A DNA stretch of 58,022 nt, from assembly GCA_002706065.1 (NCBI GenBank), contig PAJM01000003.1:10226-68247 (forward strand), given 5' to 3'. Below, piece after piece: positions 50,459 to 57,654 of the stretch (position 1 is its first letter; every line of letters starts with the position of its first letter). The DNA comes from Methanobacteriota archaeon (GTDB lineage Archaea > Thermoplasmatota > Poseidoniia > Poseidoniales > Poseidoniaceae). The notes beneath the pieces are model-generated. The model had not been told where the DNA came from, made no database searches, and saw only the letters and a program-made list of their open reading frames with translations. The position numbers and the translations under genes were made by a program.

Positions 50459-51274
50459 CTATTGCGGTTTTCGTCCACGAAATCGACTTGACATCATGAA
50501 TGGATAAAGCAGTCGACCAGATACATCTTGAAAACCGACATCTTTCATGAGGTTCCTGTAGTATTTGTTGGTCCCATAGTACGTGTATGAGCGAGCCAAT
50601 CCCTTCCATGGGTGATCTTTGGTTTTTGTGACCCACCGAGCCATCCATTGGACGACTGTACTCATCCATATACGGCCTGCGAGCCCGTGAAAATAGTTGG
50701 CTTTTCCAGCATCACACATAACCAATTGACCACCGGGTTTGAGCACTCGGAATATTTCTTCCAGACCCTTTTTCTTGTCTTGGAAGTCTCGAAATGAGAA
50801 CAAGCAGAAGACCATGTCGAAGGTATTGTCCTCGAGTGGAATGTCTTCTGCTAATGCTTGAACGTAGGCTGCTGGATCCTCGCCCCGGGTTGCTCTCGCT
50901 CCGTCGACACGCTTTTTTGCAACCTTCAGCATCGCATCCGAAGGGTCAAGACAGGTGACATCGAGTCCAACCAAGTCTTCTGCGAAGCTTCCAGGGCCAC
51001 ACCCCACCTCAAGCACTTTCATACCTTCTGTTGCATGATTGCGAACGTTTCTTCGCCATCGCTTGTCCTGTCCAAATGTCATCAACCGATTCACTCGATC
51101 ATAATCTGGAATGGTCGCTTCGAGTTGCTCCTCCAGTTCAGTCCAGGCATCCAAATCGATACCTGACGGGTCATATCCGCCTGTCGCTGCACGCTTGGAC
51201 ATGATTGACCCGCACCATCCGCACTCTTTGGAGATGTCGCTTTGTCCACGAGAGCCATCAAGCAATACGCTCAA
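50459..51274 (-). CDS. SAM-dependent methyltransferase (UbiE/Methyltransf_11-like)
   Basis: GMKVLEVGCGPGSFAEDLVGLDVTCLDPSDAML...EDIPLEDNTFDMVFCLFSFRDFQDKKKGLEEIFRVLKPGGQLVMCD. Alternative start at 51202. Confidence 0.88.
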   Translation of the reverse strand: MSVLLDGSRGQSDISKECGWCGSIMSKRAATGGYDPSGIDLDAWTELEEQLEATIPDYDRVNRLMTFGQDKRWRRNVRNHATEGMKVLEVGCGPGSFAEDLVGLDVTCLDPSDAMLKVAKKRVDGARATRGEDPAAYVQALAEDIPLEDNTFDMVFCLFSFRDFQDKKKGLEEIFRVLKPGGQLVMCDAGKANYFHGLAGRIWMSTVVQWMARWVTKTKDHPWKGLARSYTYYGTNKYYRNLMKDVGFQDVSGRLLYPFMMSSRFRGRKPQ

Positions 51275-52061
51275 CGGTTTCTGGCGTAATACCTTCTTCG
51301 GGCGTTACACGGAACACGAGCATCTTCAGATTTTCAGGTGCGTTTCGGAATTTTGAGACGATCATCGATGTTTCAAAATCCGACCCAATGGTTCGAACAC
51401 CAAAAGTCAAAACCATGTCTGCAATACTCGAAAGTTCTTGGCGAATGGATGCAGATAAACCGTTTACTGAAACCATGATCAACAAAAGACCACGGTACAT
51501 TTGTGTGTGGGCTTGAAGCATACGAATCATGGCGACAACGCGCCCTGGGTCATCACGTTGAAGGAAGAAATCTAAGCTGTCAATTCCTGCCCTGAAATAG
51601 GGGCCAAGGGCCATAATTTCGTTGGTAACTTCGGTTAGGTAATCCTGTGTTGAATCTTCAACAAAACGTGTTTGAGCAAGACGCTGAATATCTTCCAGTC
51701 GGAACCCTTCAAGTCGATATCTGCTCGCAAGAAGTTCACGTTCCAGAACATTGGCATTGTATTCTTCACCAATGGTTCGAACGTTGATGTCAAGCGGCCA
51801 GTTGTACTTCTTGAAGACCCGCACGATTTCTGGTTGAGCTTCGTTGGTCGAAATGTACAATGTATTTTCTGACTCCTCAGCGGGTGAGATAAATTGCTTT
51901 GCAAACAATTCCGCACCAGAACCGGTCTCTGTGAACGCAACCATCGTAAAACCGCGAGGGACCCCCCCGTGCATTTCGTTGTCAAATTTTGGAACGCCAA
52001 AGGAACCGACTTGTCCGAAGAAATCTTCGTCTTCCTTATCGAATGTGATGTTCTTTCGCAT
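51258..52061 (-). CDS. RecA/KaiC-like protein with degenerate P-loop
   Basis: KaiC-like layout GVPKFDNEMHGGVPRGFTMVAFTETGSGAELFAKQFI...NTLYISTNEAQPEIVRVFKKY; GSGAEL replaces GSGKT[TS]. Confidence 0.78.
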   Translation of the reverse strand: MRKNITFDKEDEDFFGQVGSFGVPKFDNEMHGGVPRGFTMVAFTETGSGAELFAKQFISPAEESENTLYISTNEAQPEIVRVFKKYNWPLDINVRTIGEEYNANVLERELLASRYRLEGFRLEDIQRLAQTRFVEDSTQDYLTEVTNEIMALGPYFRAGIDSLDFFLQRDDPGRVVAMIRMLQAHTQMYRGLLLIMVSVNGLSASIRQELSSIADMVLTFGVRTIGSDFETSMIVSKFRNAPENLKMLVFRVTPEEGITPETVERIA

Positions 52062-52072
52062 GATTCATCCCC

Positions 52073-52672
52073 TCAGTGAATAACCACCTGGCCACGATCG
52101 ACCAAATCAGTGCAATACAGGTCAAGATTCGAAAGAACCAGCGGTGGTGTCTGGTCAGGAACGTTGAGAATGACAGAGAGAACCTCGCGCTGCCGGAATG
52201 TGTTGATGAAGGTGTGAAGATACTCCGCAAGCATACGGTCTTCGTTGTAAATGGCCAAAGCATTGACGCTATCAAGGAAGACGAAATTCCGCTGCGTCGT
52301 CGTCGTACGAAGAATATAGAGCGTGCGCAAGAGCACCGATTCAAGCATGATGGGGCTATCAACAAAGTGGATGTTGGGATAGGTCACATCGGTTCCACCA
52401 AGAATCCCAGAGGAGACCAGATCGATGAACTGGATGTTCGAGACATCAACGCCAATTGATTCGAATGCTTGGATGATTTCTACTGCACCACGACTGGCGG
52501 AAATGTAAACTCCACCCATCTCAAACATTTGCATCAGCGGCAACATGGTGCTCGCAGTCACCATAAAGGCGTTCGAGTTTCCACATCGAACTTGAACCGA
52601 ACTATTGAGTGAAATGGTCGAAAGTTGCTCAGCAATGCGCTGGTCGAGTTCAAACATAATTAAGCCCCCCAC
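52073..52672 (-). CDS. RecA/KaiC-like protein without recognisable P-loop
   Basis: 199 aa; GGVYISASRGAVEIIQAFESIGVDVSNIQFID, Walker-B-like NFVFLDSVNALAIY, LSNLDLYCTDLVDRGQVVIH. Confidence 0.7.
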   Translation of the reverse strand: MGGLIMFELDQRIAEQLSTISLNSSVQVRCGNSNAFMVTASTMLPLMQMFEMGGVYISASRGAVEIIQAFESIGVDVSNIQFIDLVSSGILGGTDVTYPNIHFVDSPIMLESVLLRTLYILRTTTTQRNFVFLDSVNALAIYNEDRMLAEYLHTFINTFRQREVLSVILNVPDQTPPLVLSNLDLYCTDLVDRGQVVIH

Positions 52673-53475
52673 TTGGTTGTTTTATCACTTTGAGCACCCC
52701 ATTTCAACATCGGCGTCAACATAACGCCGAGGGGTGTCAATTCGATTGCGTGTTTTGCACGGCTGTGCGAAGTACCACGCATTTTGACAACTTGGAGGAA
52801 ACGAAGCAGGTGACCCATTCGCTCTACGTCGCCCATAACAACGATTCCGTCTGCAATGGCTTCTTCAACACCGAACGATGACCAATGTGCATTTTCAGTT
52901 GCAGAGGTAATCTCTGAAATGAGGATGGTTGTACAGCCAAGCGTTGCAAGTTTCTTTCCAAGCGTAAAGAGGAAATCACGAATCAACTGCTCGGATTTAA
53001 TCTTGTAACAAAGGGTCGTAACAGAATCAATCACTAGACGGGTAACACCAATCGTGTTGACGATATCTGTAATGGATTTGATGAGTGCATGGACATCGTC
53101 CAAATCGAACGTTGACTTGTCCAGCCCAAGCCACGAATACAAAACGTCCATGTCGAACACGTTGATCAAACCTGTATCGACCATATTCATGTCAAAAAAT
53201 GCATATTGCCGGATGTTTTCAAGCAACTTCACAGACGGCTCTGTGGCGGTAAAATGTGCGCAAGCTTCTCCGGCCAAAGCACCTCTTACGAGAAATTCCA
53301 TACCGAGTGTTGTTTTACCTGAACCACAAGTTCCAGAAGCCAAAACAGTAGAGCCGTATGGAATGCCTCCGCGAAGAATTTCATCAAGACCGTGGATGCC
53401 GGTCACACAGCGGTCTCGGGAATATGTGGATGCGGCTTGCACGGCTATCGTTTCACCCAGTTCGACCGAGTTCAT
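52660..53475 (-). CDS. KaiC-like RecA-superfamily ATPase
   Basis: TGIHGLDEILRGGIPYGSTVLASGTCGSGKTTLGMEFLVRGALAGEACAHFTATEPSVKLLENI; GVTRLVIDSVTTL; VVKMRGTSHSRAKHAIELTPLGV. Confidence 0.93.
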   Translation of the reverse strand: MNSVELGETIAVQAASTYSRDRCVTGIHGLDEILRGGIPYGSTVLASGTCGSGKTTLGMEFLVRGALAGEACAHFTATEPSVKLLENIRQYAFFDMNMVDTGLINVFDMDVLYSWLGLDKSTFDLDDVHALIKSITDIVNTIGVTRLVIDSVTTLCYKIKSEQLIRDFLFTLGKKLATLGCTTILISEITSATENAHWSSFGVEEAIADGIVVMGDVERMGHLLRFLQVVKMRGTSHSRAKHAIELTPLGVMLTPMLKWGAQSDKTTKWGA

Positions 53476-54578
53476 GAAGCATTTGATGGTTCAAAGAACA
53501 CATCTCCAGGCGTACCACTTGATTCAACGGACCATGAAGTTGCGGACAATGTGCTTCCACCCTCCCACGCAATCACTTGGTTGAGCTGCATCCGCAGCCC
53601 GGTTTGCCCACCCCATTCTGCTTTTGAAATCGTAATTGGGTTGGTTTGTCCTTCCCGAGTAAATCGGAGTTCAACGGTTCCATCAACATCATCTAAGAGA
53701 TTCATTGAACCCGTGCCGAGCAGTCCGTATTGACCCAGATCGTACATTTGAGAAGCATTTCCTTGTTCTTGAGATGACAAAGATCCCGTAAAGAGAGCAA
53801 CTGAATGACCAGTAATGACGCCCTGCTGCATCAACACTTCGTTGGATGTTGAAGGCGAACTTGTGTTGAATGACCATCCGTACAAACTTGTTGCGAATGC
53901 ATTGTCGTTGTAAACCTCAACCCACTCAGGGCCACCGCTGATTGGTCGTGTCATGACCTCCGTGATGATGAGATTTTCATTCCCTCGGCTCGCATCGTGA
54001 ACTTCGAGAGTAATCAATACCAACTCAGTTCCCATGCGAACCGTGCTCGAGGCTGTGGATGCCATCCGAGCCATGTTGAGATTTGCACCACCTTCAAACA
54101 GTACCAGATCGTTTCGAGTTTCATTGTCTGATGCGTGTATCGTAATACGCAAAAATGCGGTTAAATCTTCGTCCAATCCGAGCCCCTTGGAAAAGCTTGC
54201 AAGCGTGACATTTGACAACGCTTCGACACGGTCCAAATCGAGTTGATTGTTAGCCATAAGTCCAGTTTGGACACGACCGTCTTCGATGATCTCGGCCGTT
54301 TGGAGATGCCAGTCTTCCGTCGAATTTGCGTAATCATAACCAGCATCGCCATCACTCGGCACGAACCAACCAGAACCACTCGTTAATCGGTCAAGACCCG
54401 AGACGACGGCCTGGTCAACCTGGTCAATTTCGGTATCATTGGAGCCCATCTCAAGTTGTGCTAAGGACATGAATGCTGTCAAAATCATGAGGAAAAGTGT
54501 GAATGCTGAAAGGAACTCAATGACAGCGGTCAATCCGTTCTCATCGTCACGAAGTTGTGACCAATCGCCTCCTCCCAT
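53472..54578 (-). CDS. Membrane-anchored (pilin-like N-terminus) protein with lamin-tail-like domain
   Basis: N-terminal DDENGLTAVIEFLSAFTLFLMILTAFMSLAQ helix; LTD-like NLIITEVMTRPISGGPEWVEVYNDNAFATSLYGWSFNTSS...VITGHSVALFTGS. Confidence 0.72.
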   Translation of the reverse strand: MGGGDWSQLRDDENGLTAVIEFLSAFTLFLMILTAFMSLAQLEMGSNDTEIDQVDQAVVSGLDRLTSGSGWFVPSDGDAGYDYANSTEDWHLQTAEIIEDGRVQTGLMANNQLDLDRVEALSNVTLASFSKGLGLDEDLTAFLRITIHASDNETRNDLVLFEGGANLNMARMASTASSTVRMGTELVLITLEVHDASRGNENLIITEVMTRPISGGPEWVEVYNDNAFATSLYGWSFNTSSPSTSNEVLMQQGVITGHSVALFTGSLSSQEQGNASQMYDLGQYGLLGTGSMNLLDDVDGTVELRFTREGQTNPITISKAEWGGQTGLRMQLNQVIAWEGGSTLSATSWSVESSGTPGDVFFEPSNAS

Positions 54579-54714
54579 GCGTAGACCACAACAAGGGATG
54601 TCATGAACGTTGCCAAAAAAAAGAAGCCTTCGAATCGATTGATTTTTCTGTGATTCATGCGATGAGTCTTTGAATCATCCATGCGACCATGGTACGATGA
54701 CAGGAGCGAAGCCC

Positions 54715-57654
54715 ATGGCTGTTGCGAGAAAAAAAACCAGCCTTGGCTTGGTTGCATTGATGATGCTGTCGCTCTTTTCAGCCCTCATTGCCGCTCCAAA
54801 TGCAGCGGCCATTGAACAGGTCGATCTTGCTATCCTTTCTGGTCAGAGTCCGGTGGAAGACAGATATTATCCTGCATTTGATCCAATCACCTTCTCTGCA
54901 GAAATTGAAAATCAGGCTCTAAGTCCACAAACAACCACACGAACAATGGGATGGTACGTCTGTTCAGGGATTAAAACAGTCACTCAGTGTGTTTCCAACG
55001 ATGTAGGATCTGGGCAAATCAACATCAACGGACTCCTCGACGGAGATACTGGAACTTTCAGCGATGCAACCCCATGGTATCCGCAAGGAGCCACTGGGAC
55101 CTTCACTGTCGTGTTCAAATTGACGTACGCAGACGTCGATACAAGCGATGACGTCCTCTCGTACAACATCAACTTGACAGAAGAGTACAGCGATATTTCG
55201 GTCGATTCAAGTCAAGATCCGAGAGAGACCCTCTCAGACCTACATACATACGACGGGGAATTTGTCCTCAACACCGACCAAGATTACGTCATGAGTGTCT
55301 ATGGAACGGCACACACATGTGGGACTTGTGGATTGATTGCCTACATGGGATGGAATCTTCGAGAACTTGACGGCACACTCGTTGCCACTGAGAATCAGAG
55401 TGTGACAACCTTGCCATCAGGGGGCTATGAGCAAGCCTACACAACGTCTTTGCCAGCTTTGAATTATTCAGTTCCCGGGCGCTATATCTTCGAATTTGGG
55501 CTCATTGACAGCGCAAGTAACTTCGATGGGGACCTCAACGACTACAACGACCTTGCCCAAGTTGAAATCGTCCTAGACAACACACTTGATTTGAGAATTG
55601 CGAGCATGTACCCGTCTCACAACCCTTCATCGCCGAATTATTACTTTGGAGAAGATATGCTTTCGGTGGACATCGAAAACATTGGGAACTTTACGGTTGA
55701 AGACATACTCATCACGTTTGAGATGTTCGACGCTGTTGGAGAATCAGAGTTCATCGACACCTGCTCGCTTGACAAATTGGGGCCTGGTGAAGCATCCACA
55801 TGCATGTTCAATCTCACGAAAGTTGGCGAAGGAAAGGAACTTCGAATTTACATGCCAACTACGTTCAATGGCCGTCCTGACACGGGACCCTCCGACAATA
55901 CTCTGATTGAATTTACAGGGATTCTCGCAGGCGATATCCTGCCAATCATCACGATGAACTCCGTGTCAGGAACATACACCACTGCGGATACGATTGAATT
56001 GACAGCCATCACGAACAGTGTCGCTGCGGCTCCGCTGAATTACACTTGGATTTTGGACACAGTCATCGAAATAGGAAACGGAAGGTCAATTTCCGTTAAT
56101 GCCTCTGCATTCCCGCTGAAGGACTATGACATTGGTTTGTATGTCGAAGATGCACTCGGCTTCACCGCCGAGGCGCATGCAACAATTTCAATCATCGATG
56201 AAGTGGTCATCGATGAACTGCCACTGATGACAGGCTCTGCAGTCTCCTTAGACAAGGCCCAGTTCTCCTATGATGTTCTTCTGCCAATTGAAGGATTTGA
56301 ATACAACATCGCTGGAGGGAAAGACCCGCTTATGATCATGGATTTCAAGGTCATGCAGCTGGACAATGAGCTCCAACCTGCGCAACTGCAAAGCTTGAAT
56401 CTCGAGATTAATCTCTCCGCCTTGCTTCCAGACTCAATTCCACATGATTCCGTTGAATTCCTCGAACTACCATCGTTGGAGGACACCTACTGGGACTACC
56501 TCGAGACCCCTGACTACTTCAGTTATGATGGATTGGAAAACATCAGCCTGAACCTCAACTCCAACACGGTGGTTCTTGTGATTGGGGCTCTTCCCCAACC
56601 CAATGTGTCTCTCGCAAATCTCTCGCACACCAAACTACTTGGTGGTGCAATCGAACTTACTTGGGAACCTGAAGGTGATATCGTGAACCCATACCTTGGT
56701 GGATGGCAGATTTACAGACTTACTGTTGATGAATCGGTAGGTACCATCTTCCCAGATCCAGAAACAGAAACCAATGTCAACCTTTGGAACGAACTCCTCG
56801 CAGGCAGTGCCGTGGAGTTGGTACCAACTGATTCAGAAGGTTGGACCGACCCAGTTCCTCTGGAAACTGGCACTTGCGCATCCTATGCAATTCTGCCAAC
56901 CAATCGGGCCGGAGTCCCAGATACTTCGAGGATCAATGTCGTCATGGGTGAATCGGACAACTCAAGATTGTGCGGTGATGCGTTACCACCCACAAGCGCT
57001 GTAACCTCGTTCAGTTACACATACCGATTTACAAACTCGACGGATTGTTTCAACATGCAGCAGGACTGGAATGCATGCTATGAAGTCAACATGACATGGA
57101 CGTGGCCTGCGAACGAAGCAGATGGGGGCGTAACATGGAACATCTATCGAGTGGACAGGGAGCCAAGCACCATTGATCTCAAATTCGCAACTCCTCTCGC
57201 GACAGGCCTTATTGGAACAGAGGGAGAAACTGGCACATTCGACCAATCTGGACTCGATGTCGACGGAATACGCCCGCTTCGAACCTATTACTACGTACTC
57301 GCTCCTGTCGATGCCAAAGGCAATGAGAACACCCTCGGTCTCCCAAGTGAAAACATTCTCCGTGTGAACATGCAAGACCAATGGTGGGATTACAACCAGC
57401 ATCTCATCCCAGAGGAACCTGAACCTCCAGAACCCCCACTTGGCATTCCGTGGTTGCAAAATGTGTTGGATTACACAAAGGTCGATGAATTCCAAACAGC
57501 GGGCATGGCCGTCCTTCTCTTGGTTGTTCTCAATGCGTTGTTTATCCCGATCACAATCAAGCGACGTGCTCGATTAAAGCGCATCCTTGCTGCTCGAAAG
57601 CGTAACCAAGCAACTCGAAATATGGCTGATGAGTTCGAAGATTTCTTCGAATGA
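54715..57654 (+). CDS. Large secreted/surface protein with Ig/CARDB-like domains, C-terminal TM and basic cytoplasmic tail
   Basis: Signal peptide KKTSLGLVALMMLSLFSALIAAPNAAA; beta-rich repeats; C-terminal TAGMAVLLLVVLNALFIPITIKRRARLKRILAARKR. ORF extends to 54670. Confidence 0.82.
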   Translation: MAVARKKTSLGLVALMMLSLFSALIAAPNAAAIEQVDLAILSGQSPVEDRYYPAFDPITFSAEIENQALSPQTTTRTMGWYVCSGIKTVTQCVSNDVGSGQININGLLDGDTGTFSDATPWYPQGATGTFTVVFKLTYADVDTSDDVLSYNINLTEEYSDISVDSSQDPRETLSDLHTYDGEFVLNTDQDYVMSVYGTAHTCGTCGLIAYMGWNLRELDGTLVATENQSVTTLPSGGYEQAYTTSLPALNYSVPGRYIFEFGLIDSASNFDGDLNDYNDLAQVEIVLDNTLDLRIASMYPSHNPSSPNYYFGEDMLSVDIENIGNFTVEDILITFEMFDAVGESEFIDTCSLDKLGPGEASTCMFNLTKVGEGKELRIYMPTTFNGRPDTGPSDNTLIEFTGILAGDILPIITMNSVSGTYTTADTIELTAITNSVAAAPLNYTWILDTVIEIGNGRSISVNASAFPLKDYDIGLYVEDALGFTAEAHATISIIDEVVIDELPLMTGSAVSLDKAQFSYDVLLPIEGFEYNIAGGKDPLMIMDFKVMQLDNELQPAQLQSLNLEINLSALLPDSIPHDSVEFLELPSLEDTYWDYLETPDYFSYDGLENISLNLNSNTVVLVIGALPQPNVSLANLSHTKLLGGAIELTWEPEGDIVNPYLGGWQIYRLTVDESVGTIFPDPETETNVNLWNELLAGSAVELVPTDSEGWTDPVPLETGTCASYAILPTNRAGVPDTSRINVVMGESDNSRLCGDALPPTSAVTSFSYTYRFTNSTDCFNMQQDWNACYEVNMTWTWPANEADGGVTWNIYRVDREPSTIDLKFATPLATGLIGTEGETGTFDQSGLDVDGIRPLRTYYYVLAPVDAKGNENTLGLPSENILRVNMQDQWWDYNQHLIPEEPEPPEPPLGIPWLQNVLDYTKVDEFQTAGMAVLLLVVLNALFIPITIKRRARLKRILAARKRNQATRNMADEFEDFFE

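Follow-up and report, generated by a model that had tools for sequence, protein, structure and literature searches.

Three KaiC-like proteins, one intact and two degenerate, as a candidate control module of archaeal type IV pili in Thermoplasmatota

Introduction

Here we describe a gene cluster in a stretch of 58,022 nucleotides (contig PAJM01000003.1 of the GenBank assembly GCA_002706065.1, positions 10,226 to 68,247; hereafter the window) from an archaeon of the order Poseidoniales, phylum Thermoplasmatota. The cluster holds three KaiC-like genes, labeled K1, K2 and K3 and collectively called the trio, preceded by a gene for a lamin-tail-domain (LTD) protein. The link of the trio to pili is well supported, and its most likely role is to control the building of surface pili. 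More specifically, and with a probability that we place at roughly 0.6, the trio and the LTD protein would constitute an ArlH-like cytoplasmic control module of an archaeal type IV pilus of the PilB3 type.

The control of archaeal pili other than the archaellum is largely unknown, and the trio offers a concrete and testable candidate for it, one which spans abundant archaea of the surface ocean as well as Thermoplasmatota at large. If this proposal is true, it would also provide a natural example in which an ATP-binding KaiC has been retained over deep time alongside two pseudo-KaiCs.

Three paralogous KaiC-like proteins

Judged by sequence and predicted fold, K1, K2 and K3 are paralogous proteins of the KaiC/RecA fold, as an earlier note on this DNA had claimed when it described one intact KaiC-like protein, one without a P-loop and one with a broken P-loop. 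K1 (52660..53475, minus strand) matches the Pfam KaiC family PF06745 at 177.8 bits, the curated cut-off being 26.6, and carries an intact Walker A motif, GTCGSGKTT. Its alignment places a Thr-Glu where KaiC has a Glu-Glu pair, so that ATP hydrolysis by K1 is not assured. K3 (51258..52061, minus strand) reaches 59.9 bits with the same family, and its P-loop, TETGSGAEL, has lost both the lysine and the Thr/Ser; it also presents a conserved segment, EEYN..VLERELxASRYRLEGF..LAQTRF, and a DSLDFF motif.

K2 (52073..52657, minus strand) is likewise degenerate: in the window its P-loop region is replaced by CGNSNAF and its KaiC match, 23.1 bits, falls under the cut-off, which is exceeded by orthologues from other families (30.7 and 27.6 bits). 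Conserved motifs are SP[TI]MLE and DSVNxLAIYN. As no noteworthy match came from comparing the K2 sequence with solved structures, a fold search was carried out with its predicted structure, a model of medium confidence (mean predicted local distance difference test, pLDDT, of 67.6) with a weak C-terminus, and KaiC proteins were the top matches, with E about 1e-5. Profile-profile comparisons of K2 with K1 and K3 were weak (probability 8-15%), the alignment to K3 being near full-length. The two degenerate proteins are thus not of unrelated folds: sequence identifies K3 as a KaiC, and profile and fold search do so for K2. Across the aligned families, the intact motif GxxGxGK[ST] is present in K1, absent from K2 in all of them, and in K3 deprived of the Lys and/or the Thr/Ser in all of them.

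The Elongator subunits Elp4, Elp5 and Elp6, which have the RecA fold and degenerate sites for ATP, assemble into a heteromeric ring and provide a precedent for a mixed ring. Weak similarity to the Elp4 (PAXNEB) and Elp5 (Iki1) models was seen, and a K3 matched PAXNEB at 35.9 bits. A specific kinship with Elp4/5/6 was nevertheless set aside on the evidence of the Elp4 model, as the phylum search found PAXNEB similarity to be generic to many unrelated archaeal KaiCs.

Conservation of the operon

The earlier note had also described tight packing of five genes on one strand, with overlaps between them. An open reading frame (ORF) check of the window recovered these five minus-strand genes at the coordinates proposed, namely those of the LTD protein (53472..54578), the trio and a methyltransferase. 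The overlaps, in contrast, arose from the choice of the longest ORF and mostly vanish, because relatives back later starts: GTG 53442 is likely the true start of K1, ATG 52657 is preferred to GTG 52672 for K2, and ATG 51202 is favored for the methyltransferase over an unlikely TTG at 51274. Scans for promoters and terminators of the bacterial type gave results at the level of chance. The operon is real, and its core is formed by the LTD protein, K1, K2 and K3.

Indeed, in a comparison of 16 loci covering both families of the order, the order LTD-K1-K2-K3 was unbroken in every one. Identity to the window ranges from 77 to 93% for K1 (75 to 91% in a separate comparison within the order), 63 to 90% for K2, 55 to 83% for K3 and 34 to 52% for the LTD protein, and profile searches detected K2 and K3 each in 14 of the 21 genera of the order. 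Relatives were found throughout Thermoplasmatota, first by the K3 profile and then by the K2 profile; since the K2 family is present in 228 of the 390 genomes of the phylum, the occurrence of the trio lies far beyond chance. Across the phylum K1 shows 45-54% identity, and K1, K2 and K3 keep the same order and strand, K2 and K3 being at times separated by a single additional gene. For counts of the organization at this level we considered the best 80 loci of a contig scan, on named contigs from outside Poseidoniales with records of Thermoplasmatota type. K1 abuts K2 in 78 of these 80 loci, while K3 follows K2 in 61 (directly in 58) and is not nearby in 12, the remainder ending near K2 or being impossible to score. 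The expectation that the unit would be conserved in relatives is therefore borne out, for all four genes in both families of the order and for the trio across the phylum.

As K2 and K3 have both lost ATP-binding residues, one could regard them as functionless, decaying duplicates of K1. We give this idea practically no weight, for it is refuted by the observed conservation. The phylum alignment shows K2 without a P-loop and K3 without a complete one in every family examined, yet motifs proper to each protein are kept throughout (SP[TI]MLE and DS[VI]N in K2; KQF and SLDFF in K3), which argues for selection and not decay. Furthermore, within the family of the window both proteins are more conserved than the product of the adjacent V-ATPase subunit I gene; in loci with both genes, K2 shows 79-90% identity and subunit I 47-60%.

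As a separate observation, the additional gene that separates K2 from K3 encodes a protein of about 370 amino acids in two families (L108:3751-4875 and L109:6285-7400), and the second of these proteins has a marginal match to the methanogen output domain MetOD1, which may point to an input from signalling.

Linkage to pilin genes

The association with pili is seen most directly downstream of the trio. In 51 of the 80 phylum-level loci, a gene for an archaeal PilA-type pilin, marked by a class III pilin motif, follows on the same strand; taken together, 78 downstream pilin motifs lie on the strand of the trio and none on the other. One of these downstream genes encodes a Pilin_N protein (48.5 bits). 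Within Poseidoniales, sister genera carry a pilin gene directly after K3 (loci L055, L057, L058, L060 and L061), with a K3-pilin overlap of 4 nucleotides in L055, and the pilins of L055 and L057 exceed the Pilin_N cut-off. The genome of the window encodes a homologue of that pilin on another contig (L205:1647-2153; 45% identical across 159 residues), and the moaA-like gene found next to the pilin of L055 lies near this homologue as well.

In the genomes of the order, Pilin_N matches over the cut-off were found in all 14 trio-bearing genomes and in none of the 13 trio-free ones tested, five of which carry an archaellum.

Which machine the trio serves

No pilus motor lies in the window, and the earlier note had likewise seen no assembly ATPase of a pilus or archaellum and no FlaJ-like platform protein; looking beyond the window, an archaellum operon is located elsewhere in the same genome, on contigs C13/C30, with its own ArlH (L043:7574-8296) before ArlI, and close relatives possess a second pilus motor, in which an ATPase that matches PilB3_C weakly is accompanied by two proteins of platform type and by small pilin-like ones. 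The archaellum genes occur twice, on C13 and C30, with identical matches (100% for ArlI), which probably reflects a redundant assembly and not a true duplication. A further pilus-like system is present on contig C23 (L045:3279-5838), where a PilB/TadA-type ATPase of 414 amino acids lies beside two short platform-like membrane proteins.

The distribution of the trio follows the second motor. In the second family of the order, 14 genomes hold both the trio and the second pilus ATPase, none the trio alone, two the ATPase alone, both of them less than 80% complete, and 57 neither. The same comparison with ArlI gives 6 genomes with both, 8 with the trio alone, 15 with ArlI alone and 44 with neither, that is, no association. 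The archaellum, towards which the earlier note had pointed, is thus rejected as the partner of the trio on the pattern within this second family. Archaella are distributed between the two families much as has been reported for Marine Group II (PMC6336850), which is one ground for the placement in Poseidoniales; named relatives support the phylum Thermoplasmatota. Outside the order, a related pilus ATPase was detected in 135 of 144 genomes bearing K2, vs. 59 of 100 without it. Along with the pilin linkage, this co-occurrence with a pilus motor speaks for the role in an envelope machine that the earlier note had considered plausible.

Several observations weigh against a pilus control module. 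The co-occurrence counts are not phylogenetically independent, and as few as one or several losses may lie behind those within the order. No second pilus ATPase was detected in the genome of the window, which is 83% complete, although its near relatives have one, and in the window's own family the pilin gene is usually no longer adjacent to the trio. Moreover, the synteny with motor genes that had been suggested as a check did not appear: in the loci examined, the trio is never beside a pilus ATPase/platform operon. Finally, many genomes with a pilus ATPase (the 59 mentioned above, outside the order) have no trio, so that it is not a required part of the pilus.

Some of the same data bear on the possibility that the trio is a general KaiC device, e.g., a diel timer or a component of another cellular process, which merely shares genomes and neighborhoods with pili. 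Consistent with this, most genes flanking the trio are not conserved, 29 of the 80 loci have no downstream pilin motif (in some cases since the contig ends), and nine K2-bearing genomes outside the order have no detected pilus ATPase. We consider it quite improbable, however, given that the strand bias of 78 to 0 and, inside the order, the agreement with pilus genes at the level of genera are hard to ascribe to chance. A circadian KaiC, in addition, requires a double KaiC domain and 408 or 546 bits, whereas K1 has a single domain and scores 130.1 and 102.4 bits.

The position of the trio, with pilins and not with an ATPase/platform operon, would also suit a signalling unit that acts on the transcription of pilin genes and not on the motor, in which a KaiC hub and two pseudo-KaiC adaptors relay an environmental signal to a regulator. 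KaiC homologues, inactivated ones included, have been proposed as archaeal signalling hubs (a 2017 proposal, as cited in PMC5847659), and in Haloferax the KaiC-like CirA overlaps the transcriptional control of archaella, its deletion raising pilin genes (PMC13286277). Domain searches, on the other hand, revealed no DNA-binding or receiver domain in the trio, and its neighborhood holds no conserved regulator of transcription. Altogether we regard this alternative as unlikely, and direct control of pilus assembly as the better account.

The LTD protein

The LTD protein comprises a hydrophobic helix at the N-terminus, which carries the pilin-like motif DENG-LTAVIEFLSAFTLFLMILTAF, followed by a beta-rich part that includes the lamin-tail domain. 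Its model (mean pLDDT 86.6) consists of a single long N-terminal helix, residues 7-43, and then beta domains, among them one that matches the lamin tail, the fold search finding lamin-B1; by sequence, the lamin-tail match of 29.2 bits is under the PF00932 cut-off of 34.3. In the alignment of relatives the N-terminal motif is almost invariant, with A18, V19, E21 and F22 invariant, and it resembles the start of a small protein whose gene lies next to the second pilus motor (FGQVHVLEMLTLFWLFFMSATF). The protein of the window has no Pfam pilin match. A homologue upstream of a trio in another family (L109:3104-4222) begins with RRDKKG-ISRIVEF and reaches 44.3 bits for the lamin tail; it is the only LTD protein in which the canonical RRDKKG start was seen. 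The LTD profile found no other LTD genes beside phylum-level trios save that one, which belonged to the training set of the profile. We take the LTD protein for a probable minor pilin or pilus-associated surface protein.

A proposed mechanism and its relation to known systems

ArlH (FlaH), a KaiC-like protein which forms hexamers and has auto-kinase activity, binds and modulates the archaellum ATPase ArlI (PMC8978795), and families of KaiC proteins have been linked to archaeal pilus loci (PMC4858521). By analogy, K1, K2 and K3 would act together in the cytoplasm, with K1 binding ATP and K2 and K3 serving as pseudo-ATPases, either as structural or as regulatory partners. The trio would most likely dock on the assembly ATPase or on the platform of a PilB3-type pilus, as ArlH does on ArlI, and K1, through its nucleotide or phosphorylation state, would decide whether pilins are assembled. 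The PilA-type pilin encoded after K3 in related genera would be a substrate, and the LTD protein a minor pilin or surface protein of the same system. What was observed is the gene order, the conservation, the loss of P-loops, the pilin linkage and the co-occurrence with the pilus motor; the physical complex, the mixed ring, the contact with the ATPase and the switch function are inferred. A bolder version, which we put forward only tentatively and hold to be somewhat doubtful, is that of a phylum-wide hetero-oligomeric KaiC ring with one nucleotide-binding and two pseudo-ATPase subunits, a dedicated cytoplasmic switch on a type IV pilus motor that would represent a previously undescribed class of regulator.

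What the trio has in common with ArlH is the single KaiC-like domain and the probable service to a machine akin to a type IV pilus, and ArlH is the best NCBIfam match of K3. However, K3 scores 49.6 bits and K1 34.1, against an ArlH cut-off of 215; there are three paralogues instead of one; the trio lies outside the arl operon, where the genome has its own ArlH; and its pattern follows another pilus motor. That KaiC proteins associate with pili, and that inactivated KaiCs exist, is already known in general. KaiC-family ATPases of arCOG01171, 01174, 01175, 01172 and 01173 occur near or with archaeal pilus genes and have been proposed as regulators (Makarova 2016, PMC4858521); compared by the text of that paper, they share with the trio the KaiC domain and the vicinity of pilus genes, whereas the text mentions neither a conserved grouping of an intact KaiC with two degenerate ones nor an LTD pilin-like gene. 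The inactivated KaiC signalling hubs of the 2017 mBio proposal, as far as they are presented in PMC5847659, likewise involve KaiC folds with lost ATPase sites in signalling; the difference, to judge from that citation, is that here two distinct inactivated families share one operon and one intact partner over a whole phylum. In the literature searched, which excluded the 2017 proposal, we found no account of the intact-plus-two-degenerate set or of its LTD partner.

Neighboring genes and further observations

The UbiE-type methyltransferase (50459..51202, minus strand; PF01209, 106 bits) had been taken by the earlier note as the fifth member of the operon. Synteny rejects this membership and leaves it as a neighbor: it is not core, because it is inverted in three of the 16 order-level loci (L049, L051 and L052) and missing from the neighborhood in the other family of the order as well as in two loci of the window's own family. 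It occupies the slot held by the PilA pilin gene in related genera.

On the other side, a divergent gene (54670..57654, plus strand) encodes a large secreted protein that carries a hydrophobic segment at its C-terminus and has no Pfam match; its membership in the module is uncertain. It is syntenic in 14 of the 16 order-level loci with 25-40% identity; fast-evolving despite this kept synteny, it may be a surface partner.

Elsewhere in the genome, contig C21 encodes an intact KaiC-domain protein (L044:6109-6828) that stands alone and belongs to no pilus locus. Moreover, a giant ORF on contig C38 (L203:2-5017), found also at L204:2-4780, joins in one frame a surface protein, a transmembrane helix, a charged stretch and, at its end, a complete prepilin domain (DEMAVSPVIATILMVAITVV...). 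In G002, G008, G017, G030, G044, G047, G066 and G073 it forms a single frame of 4,513-4,710 amino acids. The product is apparently a polyprotein of surface protein and pilin, and it occurs in those trio-bearing genomes that were tested.

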